A DNA stretch of 64,000 nt. Source: Maribacter aquimaris (GTDB lineage: Bacteria > Bacteroidota > Bacteroidia > Flavobacteriales > Flavobacteriaceae). Shown here piece after piece: positions 3,720 through 18,424 of the stretch. Within the stretch, counting starts at the first letter, position 1. Each line of letters opens with the position of its first letter. The notes below the pieces were generated by a model, which was not told the origin of the DNA, did not search any database, and saw nothing but the letters and a program-made list of their open reading frames with translations. The translations under genes and the position numbers were made by a program. The stretch lies in assembly GCF_014596745.1 (NCBI RefSeq), contig NZ_JABTCF010000009.1:139646-203645 (forward strand), in the 5' to 3' direction.

Positions 3720-6700
3720 ATGCGAACAGTAAGTAGTCTTAAAGTTCCTATCTGCAATTTTTTATTGCTACTCCTCCCCTATTGTTGTGTTTTTTCCCAA
3801 GAAACAAACGCCCCACAAATTAGGTTCTATACCCTGGAAGATGGACTTTCACAGGTTTCCTCAAATGATCTATTACTCGATAGCTCGGGATTTGTATGGA
3901 TTGCAACACAAGACGGGTTAAATAAGTTTGATGGAAACAAATTTGAACAATACAAATATGATAAAAAAGATTCGTTAACGCTTTCCGGGAACCTCACCAA
4001 CAAACTCCTTGAAGATTCGGATGGTAAAATTTGGGTGGGAACGATAGGCAACGGATTGAATTTTTACGACCCAAAACTGGAAGTTTTCCATCGAATAGAA
4101 TTAGAAGCATCCCCCCACGTTAATGAGATTATATCTGGCTTGGCTGAAGATGATCGGAAAAATATTTGGGTAGCTTCCCGATTGTCCGGACTCTACAAAT
4201 TAGGGTATACAAGTAATGGCAATCTCGTACAAGACCATTTCCTTGAAAAAGAAATATCCGGTTTGCTTATTGATGACAAAAACACCCTATGGGTTGGTGA
4301 TACCCAGGGGTATATTTACAAAATAGACCCTACTTCGGAGATTAAATCGAATGCCAGACCCATTACACAGGTCCAAGGCAACGCACAGGCATTTTACCCT
4401 ACGGAAAACCAACTCCTGATTGGCGGGGACTTTGGCTTACATATTCACGATATCGCAAATCAACAGACTGAAATATACGATCTAAGTTCAGGAATGGAAT
4501 TACCTACCAAACATGTCTTGGCTTTTTTAAAAAATGATGGGCAGAGTGTTTGGATAGGAACAGGAAATGGCATTTATCTTTTCGATTGGGTCAACCAGCG
4601 TATCTTAAAGAAGATTCTTTATTCGGAGGATAAGACAAACGGACTTAGTAATGGCACCGTTCAGGCCCTATTGAAAATCTCCAAGAACCAGATTTTGGTG
4701 GGCACTGCCAACTACCCTAATTTAATCGATTTAGCCGCCCCCCCTTTCAAGAATATCTCTAAAAACCAAAGAGGTGACCATTTGTTGAATGACAATGTTA
4801 TTTTTTCCATTTATAAAGAGAATGATGACCTGTGGGTCGGGACGTCGGACGGCGGATTAAACCTCATCAGAAAGGGTCGGCCCTACTATTTCAAATTCAA
4901 CAAGAACACCCCCAATGGGTTCACCGGTACAGTAGTGAGGGCTATTGTCAAGGATGACACCAATCAACGATTGTGGATTGCGACCACTAGGGGCATTAAT
5001 ATGATCGATTTAAAAACATTCAATCCCCATAACCCAAAATTCGTAGTGTTCCAATACGACCCGGGGAATGACAATTCCATAAATGGTGATTTTTTAAAAG
5101 ATCTTGTATTGGACCACAATAACAATCTTTGGGGGGCAACCTATGGCCATGGTATTTTTCGTTTGGAATATTCCGATGAGACGAACTTTAAGATCTTTAG
5201 GTACAAAAACAAAGTTTCGGACAAAAACTCCCTATATAATGACTTTTCGGATTGTATAACAGTCGATAAGGAAAATAACCTATGGATTGGGACGCAATCT
5301 GGACTCTCCAGGCTAAGCTTTGACAATGTGGATTACCAAAACCCGGTTTTCACCAATTTTTCCAAGAAGGAGAATGACCCTTCTTCCCTGGTTCACAATT
5401 CGGTATATGATATTCTCATCGATAAGAAAGATCGTATATGGCTAGGCACCCGTAGTGGTTTTAGCCAATACCTTGGCAATGGCAAGTTTAAATCCTGGAC
5501 ACAGCAAAAGCAGTTTAGCAATGATGTCGTATATAGCATTCAACATGACCAAAACGGTGATTTATGGCTAGGAACCAATGATGGCTTGATAAAGTACAAT
5601 CCGGACAGCGATTCCTTTAAACAATTCAATATAGAAGATGGCATTCAAAGTAAGGAGTTTGATATTCATGCCCGGTTTATAGACCCTAATGGCACTATCT
5701 ACTTTGGAGGGATTGGAGGCGTTACCTATTTTCACCCTAACGATCTAAAAGAAATAGATAAACCACAACATTTGTACTTTTCAGATTTACTTGTAAAAGG
5801 TAAAACCGTAAAGATCAAAAAAGAAGTAAATGCAATTTTGAACCAAGGTTTAAAAGAAACTACGCATCTTAAATTCAAGCATAATGAATTTCCGTTTTTT
5901 CTTCAGTTTTCCTCCATAGATTACAGAATCAATAAAAATGTGGAGTATGGTTATAAATTATTGCCTACCGATACGGAATGGATTTTTCTAAAGGAACCTG
6001 AAATTCAATTTTTGAACCATCCTGCCGGCAACTATACTTTGTTGGTAAATGGTTTTTCCCGTGGCAAGGAATGGGCACAGGCACCTTTGCAAATGAACCT
6101 TGACATCTTGCCGCCATGGTGGGCCACTTGGTGGGCCTATATCGTTTATATTGGGATTGCCGTGGCCTTTGCCGATAGGTTTTACCGCTTTCAACTTTCA
6201 AAGAGAATGGCAGTGGCAGAAAGCACACGATTAAAGGAGTTGAATGAGTTTAAAAACAGTTTATACGATAATATCACCCACGAGTTCCGTACTCCATTGA
6301 CCGTTATCCTGGGAATGGCTGACACCTTGGATACCAACGTGAAACACAAGAGTTTTGAAGGGGCTGAAAAATCCTTGGAAATGATCCGCCGCAATGGCAA
6401 TAACCTTTTGCATCTGGTGAATGAGTTATTGGACCTTGCAAAGATAGAGAGTGGGAATATGGAATTGAATTTGGTGCAGACCGATGTCATCCCGTTTGTA
6501 AAATATTTGAGTGAGAGTTTTCATTCTTTGGCGCAGTCGAAGCATATCAATCTTACGGTTTACTCGGAAATCGAGACTTTGGAAATGGATATTGATGTAA
6601 ACAAAGTAGCTTCGATCATTTCAAATCTACTTTCAAACGCCATAAAATTCACTCCGGCCCATGGCAAAATCGTCGTCCATTTGAACAAAAGCAAAATAAC

Positions 6701-7793
6701 GGATAACGAATTATTTACCATAAAAGTGCAAGACAACGGTCTGGGGCTGGCCAAAGATGATATGGCCCATTTATTCGACCGTTTTTATCAGGTAAACAAT
6801 GAATCCATGTATAAACAGGAAGGGACGGGCATAGGACTTTCCTTAACCAAGGAATTTGTGGAATTGATGAACGGGACCATTGGAGTAGAAAGCACCCTAG
6901 GAAAAGGGAGTACTTTTAGCGTACAATTACCCATAACCAATGCTGCAACTAAAACTGATGATGCCAACATAACGATTGCGGCACCCCTTAAGATTCCATT
7001 TCCAAATCAAAAAGAACAAATCGATCTTTCCGAAAAGTCGTCCGAATTTCCTCTTGTACTTATTATCGAAGATAATGACGATGTTGCCCATTATCTCGAA
7101 ACCTGCCTAAAAAGCAACTATCAGACGATTCATGCAAAAAATGGTGATGCTGGAATAAAAATGGCCATGGAGCGCATCCCCAATATTATCATTTCTGATG
7201 TAATGATGCCTGGCAAGGATGGTTATGAAGTGTGTGCCACCCTAAAGGCTGATGAACGCACCGATCATATCCCTATAATTCTCTTAACGGCAAAGGTCAC
7301 CACTAAAGATAGACTTACGGGCCTTACCCATGGTGCGGACGCCTATTTGGCAAAGCCTTTTATTAGAGAAGAATTGTTTACGCGGTTAGATCAATTGATT
7401 TTGGTGCGTAAAAAATTGATCGGTAAATTGGAGAAAAACGGATTGGCCTCCCTGTTAAAGGATAAAGTTAAAAATCCACAAACCAAATTTTTACAACACG
7501 TCATAAAGATCATTCATGAGCATTTGGATGACACTAATTTTGGTCCCGCACAATTGGCCCAAGAAATACATTTAAGCGAATCCCAGACCTATAGAAAATT
7601 AAAAGCCATTACCGACAGATCCACAGCGGTTTTTATTCGTTCCGTTCGTCTTCAAAAAGCCAAGGAGTTGATCGAGACTACCGATAAAACCATCTCCGAA
7701 ATCGCCTATGAGACCGGTTTTAACGATCCCTCCTGGTTTAGTAGAGCCTTTAAGGAAGAGTTTGGGATTACACCTAGTGATTTTAATAAATAA
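3720..7793 (+). CDS. Hybrid two-component system protein (sensor, kinase, receiver and AraC regulator in one chain)
   Basis: A 1357-residue protein. A signal peptide is followed by a periplasmic sensor made of Reg_prop propeller repeats (recurring WIATQDGLNKFDG, WVGTSDGGLN, WIGTQSGLSRL), then a Y_Y_Y domain (about 715-795) and a membrane segment near 800-820. The cytoplasmic part has HisKA with His854 in NITHEFRTPLT, HATPase (SNLLSNAIKFT, DNGLGLA, GTGIGLSL), a receiver with phospho-acceptor Asp1160 (IISDVMMPGKDG), and a C-terminal AraC helix-turn-helix ending FNDPSWFSRAFKEEFGITPSDF. Family members usually control polysaccharide utilisation loci, but no SusC/SusD pair or glycoside hydrolase is nearby. 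Its targets may be the exported proteins downstream or genes elsewhere. Confidence 0.95.
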   Translation: MRTVSSLKVPICNFLLLLLPYCCVFSQETNAPQIRFYTLEDGLSQVSSNDLLLDSSGFVWIATQDGLNKFDGNKFEQYKYDKKDSLTLSGNLTNKLLEDSDGKIWVGTIGNGLNFYDPKLEVFHRIELEASPHVNEIISGLAEDDRKNIWVASRLSGLYKLGYTSNGNLVQDHFLEKEISGLLIDDKNTLWVGDTQGYIYKIDPTSEIKSNARPITQVQGNAQAFYPTENQLLIGGDFGLHIHDIANQQTEIYDLSSGMELPTKHVLAFLKNDGQSVWIGTGNGIYLFDWVNQRILKKILYSEDKTNGLSNGTVQALLKISKNQILVGTANYPNLIDLAAPPFKNISKNQRGDHLLNDNVIFSIYKENDDLWVGTSDGGLNLIRKGRPYYFKFNKNTPNGFTGTVVRAIVKDDTNQRLWIATTRGINMIDLKTFNPHNPKFVVFQYDPGNDNSINGDFLKDLVLDHNNNLWGATYGHGIFRLEYSDETNFKIFRYKNKVSDKNSLYNDFSDCITVDKENNLWIGTQSGLSRLSFDNVDYQNPVFTNFSKKENDPSSLVHNSVYDILIDKKDRIWLGTRSGFSQYLGNGKFKSWTQQKQFSNDVVYSIQHDQNGDLWLGTNDGLIKYNPDSDSFKQFNIEDGIQSKEFDIHARFIDPNGTIYFGGIGGVTYFHPNDLKEIDKPQHLYFSDLLVKGKTVKIKKEVNAILNQGLKETTHLKFKHNEFPFFLQFSSIDYRINKNVEYGYKLLPTDTEWIFLKEPEIQFLNHPAGNYTLLVNGFSRGKEWAQAPLQMNLDILPPWWATWWAYIVYIGIAVAFADRFYRFQLSKRMAVAESTRLKELNEFKNSLYDNITHEFRTPLTVILGMADTLDTNVKHKSFEGAEKSLEMIRRNGNNLLHLVNELLDLAKIESGNMELNLVQTDVIPFVKYLSESFHSLAQSKHINLTVYSEIETLEMDIDVNKVASIISNLLSNAIKFTPAHGKIVVHLNKSKITDNELFTIKVQDNGLGLAKDDMAHLFDRFYQVNNESMYKQEGTGIGLSLTKEFVELMNGTIGVESTLGKGSTFSVQLPITNAATKTDDANITIAAPLKIPFPNQKEQIDLSEKSSEFPLVLIIEDNDDVAHYLETCLKSNYQTIHAKNGDAGIKMAMERIPNIIISDVMMPGKDGYEVCATLKADERTDHIPIILLTAKVTTKDRLTGLTHGADAYLAKPFIREELFTRLDQLILVRKKLIGKLEKNGLASLLKDKVKNPQTKFLQHVIKIIHEHLDDTNFGPAQLAQEIHLSESQTYRKLKAITDRSTAVFIRSVRLQKAKELIETTDKTISEIAYETGFNDPSWFSRAFKEEFGITPSDFNK

Positions 7794-9674: not shown

Positions 9675-11378
9675 ATGAAAACCATACAAACAGGCTTTAA
9701 GGTAAACATAGAGGTTATCATTATTATCCTTCTATTTCTTATGATTGGTTTAACGGGGTGCAGCAAAGATGACGACTCAGGCTCTAAGGAAATTGCAAAA
9801 AGCAGCGAGAAACAAATCACCAGTTTTGTTTTTCGATCTGCCAACACCTTTTTCCAAACCGATTTGGTGGCAACCATAGATAAAGAAAATAAAACGGTCG
9901 ATGTCACCGTACCACCAGATGCGGACGTTTCAAGCCTACTTCCCGAAATTAAAATATCAAAGGGGGCCACTATTGATAAAACCACGGCCCAAAACTTTAC
10001 CCAGCCTGTTATATACGTGGTTACCGCCGAAGATGGGTCTACGGCCACTTATACGATAACTGTTCATTTCCCATTAACACAACGTCAGATTTTACAGGCC
10101 ATTCTAGATGTCAACCCCGGCAATACCATTTCCTGGGATTTATTGAATACCGATGATTTAAATGATCTTGATGGCGTAGTTACAAATACAGAAGACAAAA
10201 TCACTCGTTTAACCCTTGGAGAATTAGGCATAACTGCTTTACCCAAGGAAATTGGCCTATTAACCGAATTAACCTATTTATACCTTGGCGAATCCGAACT
10301 CAGGGAATTACCAAGTGAAATAGGGCAATTAACCAACTTGGAAGAATTGCATCTACATGATAACTTTATTACGTCCTTACCCAAGGAAATTGGCAATTTA
10401 AGTTCTTTATTGTTTTTAGGTCTTGATGGAAACACACTGACAACATTACCTGATGAAATCAACAAGTTAAAAAACCTGGAAATACTTTATTTAGGGGGCA
10501 ACCGGCTCACCGCTATACCTCCAAGTATGGGTGAAATGGTAAATCTCAAACAACTTACCCTATCCAGCAACCTATTGACCGAGTTACCTGTTGAAATATG
10601 TTCATTGGTAAATTTGACCGTATTGGATTTGAGTATCAATGATATTATATCGGTTCCCCAAGAAATTGAACAGCTGGTTCATTTAGAAAGGTTCTTCTTG
10701 ACTGGTAATGAACTTACTACGATCCCTAAGGAATTGGGGAAATTGGTACATCTTGAAATTTTATCCTTAAACAATAATCAACTTACTTCTGTTCCTCCTG
10801 AAATAGGGTTTCTCATAAACTTAAACATATTGCGTTTATCCGAGAACAACATAACTGCCTTACCATTATCGGTTTATTATATTAAGAATTTTCATAATCC
10901 TACAATGACCATCACCCATGATCTGGTCCAATTGGGAAATGACACTCCATTAGACGCACTCATTGGAATTTACACTGCTAACCCCGGAAATACCTTGGGG
11001 TGGAGTGTGGACCACTATCCTGAAGTTACATTTCATGACAATGGTAACCCTAAAACCATTACCATGAACAATAAAAACCTGACAAGAATACCTGAAAACA
11101 TCAACCGTATTAATTCCTTGGAGACTTTGGATGCAAATAGCAATAATCTAGAAAGCTTACCCCCATCCCTTGGTAGTCTAGAAACCTTAGCCGTTTTGAC
11201 TTTGGCCAGTAACCAACTCAATACGGTTCCGCCAGAATTAGGGCAGTTAACCAATTTAGCCCTATTGAGTTTAACCAACAACCCTATAAGTAGCATACCC
11301 CAAGAAGTTTGTGATCAGCAAATATCGAATGGTGGCATACTTACAATTTTAACAGATCCTGGGAAGGGTTGTGACTAA
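9675..11378 (+). CDS. DUF5018-domain leucine-rich-repeat lipoprotein, copy A
   Basis: A 567-residue lipoprotein (lipobox LTGC, Cys29, then SKDDD). Residues about 45-135 form a DUF5018-like beta domain (ITSFVF, VTVPPDADVSSLLPEI, VTAEDGSTATYTITV). Then comes a cap-like motif (QILQAILDVNPGNTISWDL) and about ten 23-residue leucine-rich repeats of the type LxxLPxEIGxLxxLxxLxLxxN. A second cap motif (ALIGIYTANPGNTLGW) is followed by three or four more repeats, and the protein ends ILTDPGKGCD. It is probably on the cell surface and binds protein or glycan. It is a close paralogue of the next gene, which begins 42 bases after its stop. Confidence 0.85.
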   Translation: MKTIQTGFKVNIEVIIIILLFLMIGLTGCSKDDDSGSKEIAKSSEKQITSFVFRSANTFFQTDLVATIDKENKTVDVTVPPDADVSSLLPEIKISKGATIDKTTAQNFTQPVIYVVTAEDGSTATYTITVHFPLTQRQILQAILDVNPGNTISWDLLNTDDLNDLDGVVTNTEDKITRLTLGELGITALPKEIGLLTELTYLYLGESELRELPSEIGQLTNLEELHLHDNFITSLPKEIGNLSSLLFLGLDGNTLTTLPDEINKLKNLEILYLGGNRLTAIPPSMGEMVNLKQLTLSSNLLTELPVEICSLVNLTVLDLSINDIISVPQEIEQLVHLERFFLTGNELTTIPKELGKLVHLEILSLNNNQLTSVPPEIGFLINLNILRLSENNITALPLSVYYIKNFHNPTMTITHDLVQLGNDTPLDALIGIYTANPGNTLGWSVDHYPEVTFHDNGNPKTITMNNKNLTRIPENINRINSLETLDANSNNLESLPPSLGSLETLAVLTLASNQLNTVPPELGQLTNLALLSLTNNPISSIPQEVCDQQISNGGILTILTDPGKGCD

Positions 11379-11420: not shown

Positions 11421-13145
11421 ATGAAAACACTTAAAACCGTTTATAAAAACACTTTTATAACAAAGCTTATCATCGTACTCCTTTTAGTAACATTTACTAT
11501 GGGCTGTAGCAAAGATGATGCCCAAGATCCTGTCGTTATAGCAACCCCAAAAGAAGAACCAGAACTGAGCGAAGCTAAAGAAATCACCAGTTTTGTATTT
11601 CTATTGACCAATAACCCTATAGAGGTAAACGTGGTGGCAACCATTGATGAAGAGAATAGGACCATTACAGCTGCCATGCCACCGGGTACTGACCTTTCAG
11701 GACTCTTACCAGAAGTGAAAATTTCTGAACTCGCAACCCTAGACCTTGATACAGCGCAGGACTTTACCGACCCCTTAGCATATACGGTGACTGCTGAAGA
11801 CGGTAGTACCACGGTATATACCGTTACCATTACCGCACTTTTAACCCAACGCGAAATCTTACAGGCCATTTTGGATGCCAACCCTGGAAATACACTTACC
11901 TGGGATCTTAATTTAACAGAGAATTTAGGAGATATAGACGGGATTACTTTAAATACCCAAGGCGAAATTATTGACTTGACCTTAGACGGAGGTGCTATCT
12001 CCGTCATCCCTGTAGAAATAGGGCAATTAACTAGTTTGGAATTTCTAAAACTAAATCGAAACCCACTTACAACGTTAATTCCTGAAATAGGGCAATTAAC
12101 TAATTTAATAGAACTGAGCTTATATGGATGTGATTTTTCACAACTACCTCCGGAAATAGGACTATTAACTAATTTAAAATTTTTGGGAATAGGTGTTAAT
12201 AATCTCTCCTCAATACCTCCAGAAATTGGGAAATTAAAAAAATTGGAGAAATTGTATTTACACTCGAACCAAATTACTTCATTACCCGCGGAAATAGGAC
12301 AATTAACCAATTTGGAACAATTAAGGTTAGATGTTAACGAACTTACTGAAATACCCCCAGAAATAGGGCTCTTGACAAAATTAAAAACGTTACTTATAGG
12401 TAGTAACCAACATACTGAATTACCTCCGGAAATAGGACAATTGATTAATTTAACTTGGTTATATTCAGCCAATGGCCCGCTTACTTACCTTCCTCCAGAA
12501 ATAGGACAATTAAGAAATTTAACAGAATTGGAGGTTTATAATACCCAACTTACTTCCTTACCTCCGGAAATAGGCTTTCTTGGTAAATTGGAAAAGTTAA
12601 ATTTGACTCAAATAAATAGTATATCCACATTACCTGAGTCTATCTCTTATTTAGTCGAATTGCGAAGTCTTATTGTTTTTTCAGATAATACGATTCCGTA
12701 CGAAACTACCTCCCAAAAAGATGCCCTCATCAGTATTTATAGTGCCAACCCTGGTAATACGTTGGGGTGGGGCGTTGATAATTTTCCCGAAGTTACTTTT
12801 CATGCCAATGGTAACCCTAAAACCATTACCATGAACAATAAAAACCTGACAAGAATACCTAAAAACATCAACCGTATTAATTCCTTGGAGACTTTGGATG
12901 CAAACAGCAATAATCTAGAAAGCCTACCCGCATCCCTTGGTAGTATAGAAACTTTAGCCGTTTTGACTTTGGCCAGTAACCAACTCAATACGGTACCGCC
13001 AGAGTTAGGACAGCTAAACAATTTAGCCTTACTGAGTATAACCAATAACCCCATTACAAGTTTACCGCAAGAAGTTTGTGATATGCAAACAACAAACGGT
13101 GGTATACTCACCATATTAACAGATCCTGGAGAAGGGTGTGATTAA
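11421..13145 (+). CDS. DUF5018-domain leucine-rich-repeat lipoprotein, copy B
   Basis: A 574-residue paralogue of the preceding gene with the same order: lipobox MGC followed by SKDD, DUF5018-like domain (ITSFVF, VTAEDGSTTVYTVT), cap motif with ANPGNTLTWDL, nine or ten 23-residue repeats, second cap (ISIYSANPGNTLGW), a short repeat block, and the ending ILTDPGEGCD. The central repeats are more uniform than in copy A, and several are close to PPEIGQLTNL. The C-terminal block at 12809-13040 is nearly identical in DNA to 11039-11270 of copy A, while the central repeats differ widely. This points to recent duplication or gene conversion. Confidence 0.85.
   Translation: MKTLKTVYKNTFITKLIIVLLLVTFTMGCSKDDAQDPVVIATPKEEPELSEAKEITSFVFLLTNNPIEVNVVATIDEENRTITAAMPPGTDLSGLLPEVKISELATLDLDTAQDFTDPLAYTVTAEDGSTTVYTVTITALLTQREILQAILDANPGNTLTWDLNLTENLGDIDGITLNTQGEIIDLTLDGGAISVIPVEIGQLTSLEFLKLNRNPLTTLIPEIGQLTNLIELSLYGCDFSQLPPEIGLLTNLKFLGIGVNNLSSIPPEIGKLKKLEKLYLHSNQITSLPAEIGQLTNLEQLRLDVNELTEIPPEIGLLTKLKTLLIGSNQHTELPPEIGQLINLTWLYSANGPLTYLPPEIGQLRNLTELEVYNTQLTSLPPEIGFLGKLEKLNLTQINSISTLPESISYLVELRSLIVFSDNTIPYETTSQKDALISIYSANPGNTLGWGVDNFPEVTFHANGNPKTITMNNKNLTRIPKNINRINSLETLDANSNNLESLPASLGSIETLAVLTLASNQLNTVPPELGQLNNLALLSITNNPITSLPQEVCDMQTTNGGILTILTDPGEGCD
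12000..12600 (+). repeat. Degenerate 69-base tandem repeats in LRR copy B
   Basis: The 23-residue protein repeat is visible in the DNA: variants of GAAATAGGACAATTAAC recur about every 69 bases from 12016 to 12560. Such arrays can gain or lose units by slippage or recombination, so repeat number may differ between strains. Confidence 0.6.
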
Positions 13146-13205: not shown

Positions 13206-13823
13206 ATGTATACGGATATCACAGAAGGGCGTAAAAGAAATTTCATTTACTTAATTATATGCCTTTTGATATCCGTTTATCTTTCCCCTGTACTCGCCCA
13301 GGATACACGCGATCATCGAACAAATAAGAAGGCCTCTGTCAATAGCCAAATAGTCTATTTTGATGAAGCCGATGCCATTTTTGGTAAAAGAACAGAGGTT
13401 AAAAAAGCATATCCCACATTTAAATATACAGGTAAGGTACCTACAATCAGCGTAACCCAAGCATTGAAGGACGGGGTGAATTCGATTTATGGATTGAAGT
13501 CTGGCCACACCTTATATGCCATTGTACAAAAAGGAAAGATCATTCGATTTGAAGGGGCCAATGACGGGTCCTCCAATACATTACTTTTTTCAGAAACTGA
13601 CAATAACAAGTCTTGCTTTACTTGTACAGAACTCTGTTTTAATACGGCAGATGGCGGCGTACAAGATTGCTGGACGATTTGCGAAACGGTTGATTGTTCA
13701 ACAGATTACAATGCCCAAAAACAAGGACAATCGGCACCAACCCCTTCACCGTCAGGGCCAATTCCCATACCCTATCCAAATAGCTCAAAGTTGGATAGCA
13801 CGAACCGGTTTAACCCCAATTAA
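13206..13823 (+). CDS. Secreted Cys-rich protein with QxxRDHR mature N-terminus
   Basis: A 205-residue protein of no family I recognise. A signal peptide (hydrophobic at 13-30) is predicted to be cut at VLA|QDT, leaving Q-D-T-R-D-H-R at the mature N-terminus, the same signature as in the next two genes. Residues 45-125 look globular. Six cysteines lie at 137, 140, 144, 155, 159 and 164 (CFTCTELC, then CWTICETVDC), suggesting disulfides or a metal site. A Pro-rich tail (175-195) has the form of a linker or disordered end. There is no lipobox, so it is probably periplasmic or secreted. Confidence 0.75.
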   Translation: MYTDITEGRKRNFIYLIICLLISVYLSPVLAQDTRDHRTNKKASVNSQIVYFDEADAIFGKRTEVKKAYPTFKYTGKVPTISVTQALKDGVNSIYGLKSGHTLYAIVQKGKIIRFEGANDGSSNTLLFSETDNNKSCFTCTELCFNTADGGVQDCWTICETVDCSTDYNAQKQGQSAPTPSPSGPIPIPYPNSSKLDSTNRFNPN

Positions 13824-13904
13824 ATACGTGTAGGTCCATTACCTGCATTTTGATAAGGGGACTTTATTAAAATTTTAGAACAAATAAATTTAAAGTCAAG
13901 TATC

Positions 13905-15509
13905 ATGAAGACAGCAACGATATTGAAGTTTATAAAGAACCCGATTTACCCATTTATCGTGTTTTTTACAACGGTTTGCATTTGGCCCGTTCAGGCGCAA
14001 ACTGTCCGCGACCATAGAAATAAAACGAAAAAAACCGTCGTACGTGACCACAGAAATCAAACCACCTTTAAACCCTTAAACCATTATTGGAATGATAGTA
14101 GAAAGGACAACCAGCTTACTGCAACAATCGAAGGTAAGAATGGGGCATTGGGCGCGGACTATCGTTTTGTGCGACAAGATGGATATGTCTTGGAAAAAGC
14201 TTCTAGCATAGAAGGACAAGCTATACCCCTTTACTTGTACTATAATAAAACTCTTGAGGATAATTTTTCAACGGCTTCCCCAGAGGGAATTAAAGCTGCT
14301 AAAGCGGCGGGATATAAAAAAGTAAGAGTCCAAGGGTATATTCTAAAAAATGTAAAACCAAATTATCAACATTTATACAAGCCGCTTTGGTTGTATTACC
14401 ATGACACCCGAAAAGACAATTTCACAATTGCTACAGCAGAGGGTATGAGCGTAGCAGAAGCAGGAGGATATCGAAAGGTAAGGGTCGAAGGTTATATTTT
14501 AAACGCTTTAGACGACAACCATCAAATAGAAATTACAACAGCATTAAGTGCAAGGTACTTGAATAATTATCCAAGCGATCGAGGAAATGGTTGGAGTGAC
14601 AAACTGCAAGGTGTTGGCCATGATGATACTAATTGGTTTTTTACGCAAAAGGAGCGGTTGTGGAAGTTTCCTATATCACACGACCTGAACAAACATGTAA
14701 GTCGAAATAATTTGCCTTCTGGAGTCAAAACCGTATCAATTCCAAACGTATTAAAAAAACTAGGTTATAACCATTTTGGCGATCTGGTCGAACATAAGGG
14801 TTTTTTGTTTATCCCTTTGGAAGCTGAGCACAATAGTTATAGGAAAGCAGTTAGTTATGTAGGTATTGAAGTAGACAGTCCTAAGAACGGAACGAATCCA
14901 TTAATTGCTGTATTTAGGGCCTCTGATTTATCTTATGTTGGTTCAGGGGCTTTACCAGCCCAGACCAAAGCTGGTTGGTGCGCTATACACCCTCAAAATG
15001 GCATGTTGTATACGTCTAACAATAGTATGAATATCGACAATAAATTACTGGTCTATACCATGGATTTAGAAGCTTTGAAAGAGAATAGGAAATGGCTAAA
15101 GTATAGTGGTTCTAAAGATTTGTTGGATGAGAATGGAAATATTATTACCATAAAAGGATATATGCAGGGTGGGGAATTTTCAGATGACGGTAAATTTCTG
15201 TTCATCATAAATGGTAAAGGCACTGATTTCAATAAAAAAGATGGGGGTATATGGGTTTTCAATTTTAAAACTAGAAGAAAGGCACTAAAATCGGAAACCA
15301 GCGGAGTCTTTAAATATGAATTTAATCCAGGTTATAATATGGAAGAACCGGAAGGTCTTACCTACTGGGATTTAGACAACTTAAACGCGCCAGGAATCAA
15401 GGGGAAACTACATGCTATCCTATTGAACAGCGATGCCACTAGTAGTGATGAATTTTGGTTAAAACATTATGATCTTAAATCAATTAGAGTCCCTTTATAT
15501 GGGAATTGA
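13905..15509 (+). CDS. Secreted protein: RDHR signature, three RKDNF repeats, propeller-like C-terminal domain
   Basis: A 534-residue exported protein. The signal peptide is cut at about VQA31|Q32, giving QTVRDHRN, and a second VRDHRN follows at 46-51. Three repeats of about 40 residues lie at 58-96, 109-147 and 160-199, of the form YxYYxxTRKDNFxTATxEGxxxAxAGGYRKVRVEGY. From about 205 a larger domain has blade-like stretches (GVGHDDTNWFFTQKERLWKF, FGDLVEHKGFLFIPLEAE, GGEFSDDGKFLFIINGKG, GGIWVFNFKTRR), which suggest a beta-propeller. No catalytic motif is evident. The same repeats occur in the astacin protein downstream, so the two probably share a ligand or location. Confidence 0.8.
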   Translation: MKTATILKFIKNPIYPFIVFFTTVCIWPVQAQTVRDHRNKTKKTVVRDHRNQTTFKPLNHYWNDSRKDNQLTATIEGKNGALGADYRFVRQDGYVLEKASSIEGQAIPLYLYYNKTLEDNFSTASPEGIKAAKAAGYKKVRVQGYILKNVKPNYQHLYKPLWLYYHDTRKDNFTIATAEGMSVAEAGGYRKVRVEGYILNALDDNHQIEITTALSARYLNNYPSDRGNGWSDKLQGVGHDDTNWFFTQKERLWKFPISHDLNKHVSRNNLPSGVKTVSIPNVLKKLGYNHFGDLVEHKGFLFIPLEAEHNSYRKAVSYVGIEVDSPKNGTNPLIAVFRASDLSYVGSGALPAQTKAGWCAIHPQNGMLYTSNNSMNIDNKLLVYTMDLEALKENRKWLKYSGSKDLLDENGNIITIKGYMQGGEFSDDGKFLFIINGKGTDFNKKDGGIWVFNFKTRRKALKSETSGVFKYEFNPGYNMEEPEGLTYWDLDNLNAPGIKGKLHAILLNSDATSSDEFWLKHYDLKSIRVPLYGN

Positions 15510-15543
15510 AGGCAAGATTAAAATAATTCTAAAAAATAAAGTT

Positions 15544-17370
15544 ATGACACTGAAAATAAAATCTAAAAGAAACCTAATCTGTTTGACCATAGGCATTCTC
15601 AGCTTAGTATTCAGTTTGCCCATTCAAGCGCAAATTGTACGTGACCATAGAAACAAGAAAAAAGCCGAAAAATCGGAAATCGAAATGTTTCATCCGAAAA
15701 GTACAGAACGGATAGAGAAAAAAGTCAATGCATATTTACCTTTTCACCAAGCGTCTAAACTGGTCGCTATGGAATTTGTAGATGGTATGGCGGTCATGGA
15801 AGGTGATATCGTATTAGGGCCAAGCCTTCTATATTCCGGTGAAAATCAATTTGCCGTTGTCATTGATGGTGATACGTATCGTTGGAGAGATGGCATAATT
15901 CCCTTTACCATTGAAAGTGGACATCCCCAAAGTGAATTAATCCTACAGGCCATTCAACATATTCATGAACAAACCAACCTTAAATTAGTTTCACGCACCA
16001 ATGAAAATGATTATGTCACATTCATTACAGGAGATGGTTGTTGGTCCAGAATAGGCCGATGTGGCGGAAAGCAAAGCATCAATATAGGGGCTTGTGGTTT
16101 TGGCAGTATTGTCCATGAAATTCTGCACACTGCAGGATTATGGCACGAACAGTCTCGCGAAGACCGGAATGAACATGTCACCATACTATGGGAGAATATA
16201 AAACCGGACAAAAAAAACAATTTTGAAAGACATATTTCTGATGGCATTGATATTGGGCAATATGACTGTAATTCCATCATGCATTATCCGCCTTACGCTT
16301 TTAGCAAAAGTATTTTACCAACCATCACGAGTACAAAATGCACCTCTTTTGGTCAACGGAGCGGCATGAGCTCGGGAGATAAAATGGCAATCAATGAATT
16401 GTATAAAGTTAAAGTCCCTGAAAATTTAACCAATAGGCCTTGGTATTTGGTGGTAAGGCATAGTGGAAAAGTTGTGAATATCCACGGGGGTCGCTTAAAC
16501 CCTAAAGCCAATGTGCTGCAATATGAACTGAACCATAAAGATTCACAAAAATTCCGTTTGTTGAACGCGGGAAATGGTTATTACTATATCCAAAATTTGG
16601 GAAGTAACCTGGTACTGGATGTTGAGGGTGGCAATGCCTCGGCCCCGACAAATGTATGGCAATACCCAAAAAATGGTACAGATGCCCAAAAATGGCAATT
16701 AATAGATGCAGGAAGTGGCAACTATTATATCCGTTCAAAATTAGGTGACTTGAATTTAGATGTAGAAGGGGGACTTAAGGACAATGGAACCAATATCAGG
16801 GTAGCGGCTACAAAAGGAGGCCCGGCGCAACAGTTTAAATTAAAGGAAGCTGCCTACTCTCCCCCACCAAAAGACAGTTACACCAAACCTTTAGAGCATT
16901 ATTGGAACGGTACACGAAAAGACAACTTCAGTACAGCGAGTATTGCGGGTAAAAACAATGCCTTGAACGGGAATTACCGATTTGTTCGAGTAGATGGTTA
17001 TGTGTTGAACAAACCTACATCCACTGAGGGTACGGCCGTACCACTTTACTTGTATTACAATAACACCCGGAAGGATAATTTTACGACGGCCTCCACCGAG
17101 GGTATTAGGGCTGCGGAAGCAGGAGGGTATCGCAAAGCAGGAATTGAAGGGTATGTTTTAAGTACGGTCAAAACAAAATACAAGCACTTATACAAACCCC
17201 TTTGGCTGTATTATCATGATGTCCGTAAGGATAATTTTGTCACGGCAACCAAACAAGGCATGGATGTGGCCGAGGCAGGCGGCTATCGCAAAGTAAGGAT
17301 TGAAGGCTATGTTAGAGTAGATCAAACCTCAAATTTAGCAACAAATCTAAACAATAAAGCAAAAAATTAG
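15544..17370 (+). CDS. Secreted astacin-family (M12A) metalloprotease with ricin-type lectin domain and RKDNF repeats
   Basis: A 608-residue exported protease. The signal peptide is cut at about IQA29|Q30, giving QIVRDHRN. The propeptide contains MEGDIVLG (85-92), which matches the astacin Asp-switch (FxGD-like) with Asp88. The catalytic domain begins near YRWRDGIIPF (112-121); its zinc site is HEILHTAGLWHE (His191, Glu192, His195, His201) and the Met-turn is SIMHY (244-248). Residues about 297-435 are a ricin B-type lectin with repeated VLDVEGG and QKWQL motifs. Three RKDNF repeats close the protein (about 450-488, 500-539, 552-590). The ATG at 15544 is chosen because the longer frame overlaps the preceding gene and hides the signal peptide. 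Confidence 0.92.
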   Translation: MTLKIKSKRNLICLTIGILSLVFSLPIQAQIVRDHRNKKKAEKSEIEMFHPKSTERIEKKVNAYLPFHQASKLVAMEFVDGMAVMEGDIVLGPSLLYSGENQFAVVIDGDTYRWRDGIIPFTIESGHPQSELILQAIQHIHEQTNLKLVSRTNENDYVTFITGDGCWSRIGRCGGKQSINIGACGFGSIVHEILHTAGLWHEQSREDRNEHVTILWENIKPDKKNNFERHISDGIDIGQYDCNSIMHYPPYAFSKSILPTITSTKCTSFGQRSGMSSGDKMAINELYKVKVPENLTNRPWYLVVRHSGKVVNIHGGRLNPKANVLQYELNHKDSQKFRLLNAGNGYYYIQNLGSNLVLDVEGGNASAPTNVWQYPKNGTDAQKWQLIDAGSGNYYIRSKLGDLNLDVEGGLKDNGTNIRVAATKGGPAQQFKLKEAAYSPPPKDSYTKPLEHYWNGTRKDNFSTASIAGKNNALNGNYRFVRVDGYVLNKPTSTEGTAVPLYLYYNNTRKDNFTTASTEGIRAAEAGGYRKAGIEGYVLSTVKTKYKHLYKPLWLYYHDVRKDNFVTATKQGMDVAEAGGYRKVRIEGYVRVDQTSNLATNLNNKAKN

Positions 17371-17659: not shown

Positions 17660-18424
17660 ATGAAAAAAGTACTTGTTCTCCTTTACGGGATTGCCGCCTA
17701 TGTTATTTTTTTAATCGCCTTTTTATATGCCATCGGCTTTGTAGGCAATTTGATGGTGCCTAAATCCATAGATTCGGGTGAGGAGGCACCCTTAATGCAA
17801 TCCATTTTAATCAATATTGGACTTCTTAGCATATTCGCGATGCAGCATAGCATTATGGCTCGACCTGCTTTTAAAAAATGGATCAAACGGTTTATCAATC
17901 CAGCTATTGAGAGAAGTACTTATATTCTATTATCGAGCCTAGCACTCTTACTAATTTACTGGAAATGGCAACCCATGACGACTATTGTATGGGAAACAGA
18001 TGGTGCAATCGCTATGCTATTGACCGTAGTTTTCTTTTTAGGTTGGTTGGTGGTATTCCTGTCCACTTTTATGATCAGTCATTTTGAGCTTTTTGGTCTT
18101 ACACAGATCTATGAGAATTTCAAAGATCAAAAATTAACGTATCCAAAATTCCAGACGAATTGGTTCTATAAAATCGTAAGACATCCAATTATGTTAGGCT
18201 TTATCATTGCTTTTTGGGCAGCACCGACCATGACACTTGGACATTTGTTGTTCACAGTAGTCACTACTGCATATATTTTGATAGCAATCAAATTTTTAGA
18301 AGAAAAAGATTTGAAAAAGATAATTGGCAAAGAATACGTAGAATATCAAAAACAGGTACCTATGATCGTTCCTTTTTCAAAAATCGTTAACGTAGAAAAC
18401 ACAAATAGTCCCCAAAAGGTTTAA
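17660..18424 (+). CDS. mddA: Methanethiol S-methyltransferase-like membrane protein (MddA family)
   Basis: A 254-residue membrane protein with about six hydrophobic segments. It matches the MddA/NnrU-like pattern throughout: FLYAIGFVGNLMVPKSID near the start, MQHSIMARPAFKKW, ERSTYILLSSLALLLIYW, SHFELFGL, IVRHPIMLGFIIAFWAAPTMT and a final EEKDLKKIIGKEY. The RHPxxLGF box and the late E-E residues are those of the isoprenylcysteine-methyltransferase-like fold. MddA methylates methanethiol with S-adenosylmethionine to give dimethyl sulfide, a detoxification and volatile-sulfur route. The assignment is from sequence pattern alone. Confidence 0.82.
   Translation: MKKVLVLLYGIAAYVIFLIAFLYAIGFVGNLMVPKSIDSGEEAPLMQSILINIGLLSIFAMQHSIMARPAFKKWIKRFINPAIERSTYILLSSLALLLIYWKWQPMTTIVWETDGAIAMLLTVVFFLGWLVVFLSTFMISHFELFGLTQIYENFKDQKLTYPKFQTNWFYKIVRHPIMLGFIIAFWAAPTMTLGHLLFTVVTTAYILIAIKFLEEKDLKKIIGKEYVEYQKQVPMIVPFSKIVNVENTNSPQKV

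Follow-up and report, generated by a model that had tools for sequence, protein, structure and literature searches.

Three adjacent genes with a common N-terminal motif

In the window, the whole 64,000-nucleotide stretch of Maribacter aquimaris DNA analysed here, three consecutive genes encode exported proteins (P1, P2 and P3) in which Q-x-x-RDHR directly follows a predicted A/Q cleavage site. This arrangement, including a second copy of the motif in P2, had been noticed in the sequence and was confirmed from the open reading frames (ORF). With the slash marking the predicted site, the N-termini read ...SPVLA/QDTRDHRTNKK in P1, ...WPVQA/QTVRDHRNKTKKTVVRDHRNQ in P2 and ...LPIQA/QIVRDHRNKKK in P3, and the second RDHR of P2 lies 12 residues after the first. 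The signal peptides and cleavage sites were judged by eye from the A-x-A/Q pattern rather than by a predictor, and the start of P3 was taken as 15544, the ORF-listed start at 15469 falling inside the end of gene 2. The three genes belong to a row that also includes, ahead of P1, two tandem untagged lipoproteins with near-identical C-terminal parts; a regulator lies further upstream (Table 1).

Table 1. Genes and N-terminal features of the tagged cluster in window coordinates; RDHR codons start at 13308, 14007, 14043 and 15640.
Feature	Position	Strand	Details
Hybrid two-component regulator	3720..7793	+	Reg_prop, HisKA, HATPase, response regulator, AraC-type HTH
Leucine-rich-repeat (LRR) lipoprotein	9675..11378	+	Untagged, same gene row
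Leucine-rich-repeat (LRR) lipoprotein	11421..13145	+	Untagged, same gene row
P1, exported Cys-rich protein	13206..13823	+	205 aa, no Pfam family above cut-off
P1 N-terminal cassette	13206..13331	+	Signal peptide 13206-13298, tag QDTRDHRTNKK 13299-13331, RDHR 13308-13319
P2, exported protein	13905..15509	+	534 aa, DUF5648 repeats (PF18885) then propeller-like region
P2 N-terminal cassette	13905..14060	+	Signal peptide 13905-13997, two tag units (RDHR 14007-14018 and 14043-14054)
P3, exported astacin (M12A)	15544..17370	+	608 aa, with ricin-B lectin and DUF5648 repeats
P3 N-terminal cassette	15544..15663	+	Signal peptide 15544-15630, tag QIVRDHRNKKK, RDHR 15640-15651; X head fused to astacin body inside the tag
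NnrU/PEMT-like membrane methyltransferase	17660..18424	+	No tag

Beyond the tag, the three proteins are less dissimilar than originally thought. They had been described as otherwise unrelated, but DUF5648 (PF18885) was found in both P2 (32.2 bits) and P3 (58.8 bits, against a gathering score of 25), and the tagged families also have related signal peptides. DUF5648 has been described as a three-bladed propeller for which glycan recognition has been proposed (PMC12853789). The astacin domain of P3 (PF01400, E 2.8e-45) has an intact zinc motif, HExxHxxGxxHExxRxD, and alignment to proastacins 3lq0 and 6ht9 places MEGD, which marks an Asp-switch propeptide, ahead of the catalytic domain. The tag of P3 sits in the propeptide, as had been proposed, some 70 residues before the catalytic domain. 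P3 shares its catalytic domain, Asp-switch propeptide and lectin domains with LegP-like astacins (M12A enzymes with lectin domains); it differs in scoring below the cut-off of the LegP model (218 vs 300 bits) and in carrying an RDHR tag that precedes the conserved part of the propeptide. No C-terminal sorting domain of the type IX secretion system (T9SS) was present among the Pfam hits of P1-P3 or of the further tagged families X and Y described below, and P1-P3 had no NCBIfam match; weak domains of this kind could escape such a search.

Distribution, conservation and origin of the tag

The frequency of the motif is far beyond chance. RDHR occurs 21 times in about 50,000 ORF residues from eight related loci, against 0.047 expected. 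None of the 21 copies lies outside a tag region; 20 are close to the N-terminus of exported proteins, and the other is among the final residues of a protein. At a probability of about 9e-7 per site, its presence in three successive proteins by chance would be of the order of 1e-16. The QxxRDHR DNA pattern has seven matches in the whole genome to which the window belongs, and only those of P1-P3 combine a sizeable ORF with a preceding signal peptide; in the eight genomes searched whole (this one and seven others), no match outside this cluster is at once in frame, part of a sizeable ORF and preceded by a signal peptide. When 84,980 species were scanned with AQx[VI]RDHR[NTK]K, an exact pattern that misses variants and hence gives a lower bound, 12 loci came up, and those in frame behind a signal peptide were in M. 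polysaccharolyticus, Aureibaculum and Aequorivita, all Flavobacteriaceae. DNA-pattern matches outside the cluster (L009-L012, L016-L024 in part, L035, L039, L047 and others) were out of frame, in tiny ORFs or had no signal peptide upstream. Together with the search of 397 genomes of the family, the species scan rules out a general Bacteroidota tag; the motif is confined to one cluster type in a few Flavobacteriaceae.

Besides the window, syntenic or similar clusters with tagged proteins were found in M. polysaccharolyticus (L032), Aureibaculum flavum (L052) and genomes G008 (L033) and G010 (L069), all four of which also have P1 orthologues. Further clusters are those of Aequorivita capsosiphonis (L057), G264 (L067) and G236 (L068), the last with a single tagged protein. 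The M. polysaccharolyticus cluster has five tagged genes, including P1, P2, X and P3, as well as a P2 tag of two units, one of them decayed. Six related clusters besides the window have a relative of the hybrid two-component regulator upstream, and the NnrU/PEMT-like methyltransferase flanks the cluster in the window, M. polysaccharolyticus and Aureibaculum. Two additional families are tagged, X (about 545 aa, no Pfam family) and Y (about 430 aa), while Z, an SPI-type protein present in three clusters, has no tag. X carries the tag in six of the six loci that have it, and in all six the next gene encodes an untagged HEAT/vitellogenin-N-like lipoprotein; X adjoins P1 or P2 in several relatives, and its tag is retained between genera in which X bodies are 54-56% identical. 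The window genome lacks both X and the HEAT lipoprotein, and the latter is missing from Aequorivita too, where tags are kept. Like the HEAT lipoproteins, the LRR lipoproteins of these clusters are without a tag. An astacin accompanies the tags in the window genome and M. polysaccharolyticus only, none being present in the other tagged clusters read. A phage origin was considered and rejected, the one viral match being internal to an ORF of a phage contig without a signal peptide, and no plasmid relatives of X were found. Two side observations concern the lipoproteins: one or two LRR lipoproteins also occur in L032, L068 and L069, and the HEAT-repeat lipoprotein that follows X (L032:12165-13817 and relatives) has a match to Vitellogenin_N (PF01347) above cut-off.

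The tag follows the consensus Q-x-[VIT]-R-D-H-R-[NT]-K-x-K and comprises one to three units of 10-12 residues each. Two units are found in P2, in X of G008, in Y of G264 and in P2 of Aequorivita, and three in X of G264 (RDQR, RDHR, RDQR). All N-terminally tagged proteins have A/Q or S/Q at the predicted cleavage site and no tagged protein has a cysteine there, and the first 15 mature residues of tagged proteins have a mean net charge of +2.7, vs -0.8 for other exported proteins. The link to the cleavage site that was originally noted is not strict, one relative having its tag at the C-terminus. That protein, a DUF5648-Y fusion in Aequorivita capsosiphonis (L057:1140-2948), ends in ...KTIRDHRTD, and the gene after it begins with two tag units. 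In some orthologues the tag has decayed, as in P1 of G010 (RDKK), P1 of G008 (RDGK...REHR) and another G008 protein (RNQR), and it is therefore not essential to every member.

Codon usage indicates at which level the motif is maintained. Among 27 tag copies, the synonymous share of differing codon pairs is 100, 75, 49 and 79% at R, D, H and R, respectively, as against 7-27% at ten flanking positions; these copies are related by descent, so that the figures are descriptive and do not count independent events. Since the third codon positions of RDHR vary, it is the protein that is conserved and not the DNA, and the RDHR protein sequence is, judging from its codons, kept by selection.

The resemblance between tagged proteins extends upstream of the motif. 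Signal peptides of different tagged families are similar to each other (mean Z 2.63) well beyond their similarity to other exported proteins (0.45) or that of background pairs (0.77), and none of 500 random sets was as similar. The match of a P2 profile to the G008 X protein starts at position 1 (E 1e-12), and an X profile matches the window genome nowhere but in P3, over its signal peptide and tag (E 7e-12). When compared with M. polysaccharolyticus, the DNA upstream of window P3 is 95% identical to the upstream DNA and head of X and 49% to those of P3, while the P3 body is 47% identical to X and 96% to P3, with the change-over located in the tag. As X adjoins P1 or P2 in several relatives, the simplest explanation is that recombination between two stretches coding for the tag caused a deletion in the window lineage and left the X head on the astacin body. 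It is thus well supported by these alignments that the shared unit is an N-terminal cassette of about 45 residues, apparently of common origin and made up of signal peptide and tag. Shared ancestry and shuffling of this cassette, rather than independent acquisition, are the first explanation for the common motif.

Possible role of the RDHR peptide

Part of the signature has a ready explanation. In Bacteroidetes most substrates of signal peptidase I expose a Q that is turned into pyroglutamate (the Q-rule), and this Q reportedly is no generic sorting signal (PMC5837995, PMC10653852). The Q that directly follows the predicted cleavage site in tagged proteins conforms to this rule, which accounts for the first residue of the signature, but the rule covers Q alone and RDHR[NT]K is outside it. 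The leading Q being ordinary, R-D-H-R-[NT]-K is the part that needs explaining. The original idea of a common processing, sorting or binding tag holds in part: the peptide is non-random and kept at the protein level, and a role of this kind is still the best guess, but the Q is generic and no special signature. Neither a search for 'RDHR motif' (no paper) nor one for 'VRDHR' (one match, unrelated) led to a described motif that matches the tag.

Closest to the tag comes the Bacteroidetes lipoprotein export signal (LES), K-(D/E)2 or Q-A-(D/E)2 on lipoproteins, which is sufficient for sorting (PMC5080379). Both are short charged motifs at the mature N-terminus that are common to different exported proteins. 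However, the RDHR tag is basic, has no lipobox cysteine, can be repeated and is once C-terminal, and the tagged proteins have neither the lipobox nor the K-(D/E)2 or Q-A-(D/E)2 sequence that would make them LES proteins. The RxLR motif of oomycetes and the PEXEL motif of Plasmodium are likewise short and Arg-containing, and they follow the signal peptides of proteins whose bodies differ. They serve eukaryotic host targeting and occur in many genes, whereas the RDHR tag belongs to a single bacterial cluster in which about one to five genes are tagged.

We propose that the cassette most likely was first a part of protein X of the regulator-linked cluster, because X is tagged in all the loci that have it. 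It would then have passed to neighbouring genes by recombination, including the crossover inside the tag that joined the X head to the astacin. Tagged proteins would be exported by Sec and cleaved before Q, which would be capped as pyroglutamate under the general Q-rule. The RDHR peptide, presumably disordered (structure predictions for P1 and X, with a mean pLDDT of 40 and 33, were too poor to judge this), may act as a docking or retention peptide, allowing cluster proteins that are not lipidated to bind a partner shared by them in the envelope or an anionic glycan at the surface. Such a role fits because the tag is found on non-lipidated proteins and is absent from the LRR and HEAT lipoproteins, is basic and repeatable, and is tolerated at either end of a protein. 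The HEAT/vitellogenin-N-like lipoprotein was considered as a universal receptor for the tag and was rejected, both the window genome and Aequorivita having tags in its absence. The decayed tags, the single tagged protein of G236 and the untagged Z also count against the proposal. As a whole, the explanation by a swappable cassette from X whose RDHR serves as a docking or retention peptide stands, in our estimation, at about an even chance. The further claim, by which RDHR[NT]K would be a new peptide that docks non-lipidated exported Flavobacteriaceae proteins to the envelope or sorts them, and would travel on the recombination-spread signal-peptide cassette of one regulator-linked cluster, is more tentative and falls short of even.

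It is conceivable, though somewhat unlikely, that the cassette has no special function, the signal peptide and first mature residues having been duplicated or swapped as a block, with RDHR either not yet diverged or kept for efficient export and cleavage. The relatedness of signal peptides between families, the demonstrated use of the tag as a crossover point and its decay in several orthologues would all be expected in this case. Against it are the mostly synonymous differences among RDHR codons next to residues that vary freely, the presence of several tag units in one protein, a C-terminal tag that has no signal peptide beside it and the retention of the tag between genera despite the divergence of X bodies.

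Processing is a less probable purpose still, and one we consider doubtful: the tag would be cut, for example at its Arg-Asp bond by the astacin of the cluster or by a trypsin-like protease, to activate or release the proteins. Each unit offers Arg-Asp and several basic residues, the tag of P3 is within a propeptide, and some astacins (meprin, tolloid enzymes) favour acidic residues after the cut. On the other hand, the restriction of the astacin to two of the tagged clusters is against this, a cut so near the N-terminus would trim few residues from any of the proteins except P3, and the retention of the second R of RDHR would have to be explained in some other way. As to chance, or a binding site or repeat at the nucleotide level that happens to read as RDHR, the motif is short and recombination does occur at this DNA, but both are highly improbable. 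Chance is refuted by the observed count, and a nucleotide element would require conserved third codon positions, which vary strongly inside RDHR; moreover, RDHR is always in the same reading frame within tagged genes. 

If the RDHR peptide does dock or sort proteins, exported proteins of Bacteroidota that are not lipidated would have in it an N-terminal address to complement the lipoprotein export signal. Between two Maribacter species, the crossover provides a DNA-level example of a signal peptide and mature tag moving between exported proteins, and such movement of a cassette is a concrete case of sets of secreted proteins being rewired.

Additional observations on P1

A fold search with P1 gave a best E of 0.38 and nothing lower, and two stretches of its sequence resemble other proteins. 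DGSSNTLLFSE (13557-13592) is similar to the DGTSNT motif of DUF1559 (PF07596), with a score below the cut-off (17.7 vs 23.3 bits). The best-conserved stretch of P1, IVYFDEADAIFGKRTEVK (window 13356-13406, P1 residues ~51-67), has a match (E about 1e-8 over some 32 residues) to the Walker-B segment in AAA+ ATPases that are about 450 aa long and occur in dozens of Flavobacteriaceae genomes, yet P1 is exported and is without the other AAA parts. The same Walker-B-like peptide, FFDE[AV]DALFGKRT[DE][IV], also occurs inside ORFs similar to tRNA(Ile)-lysidine synthase in two genomes of genus g167 (L079 and L077), where it appears to be a short in-frame insert.
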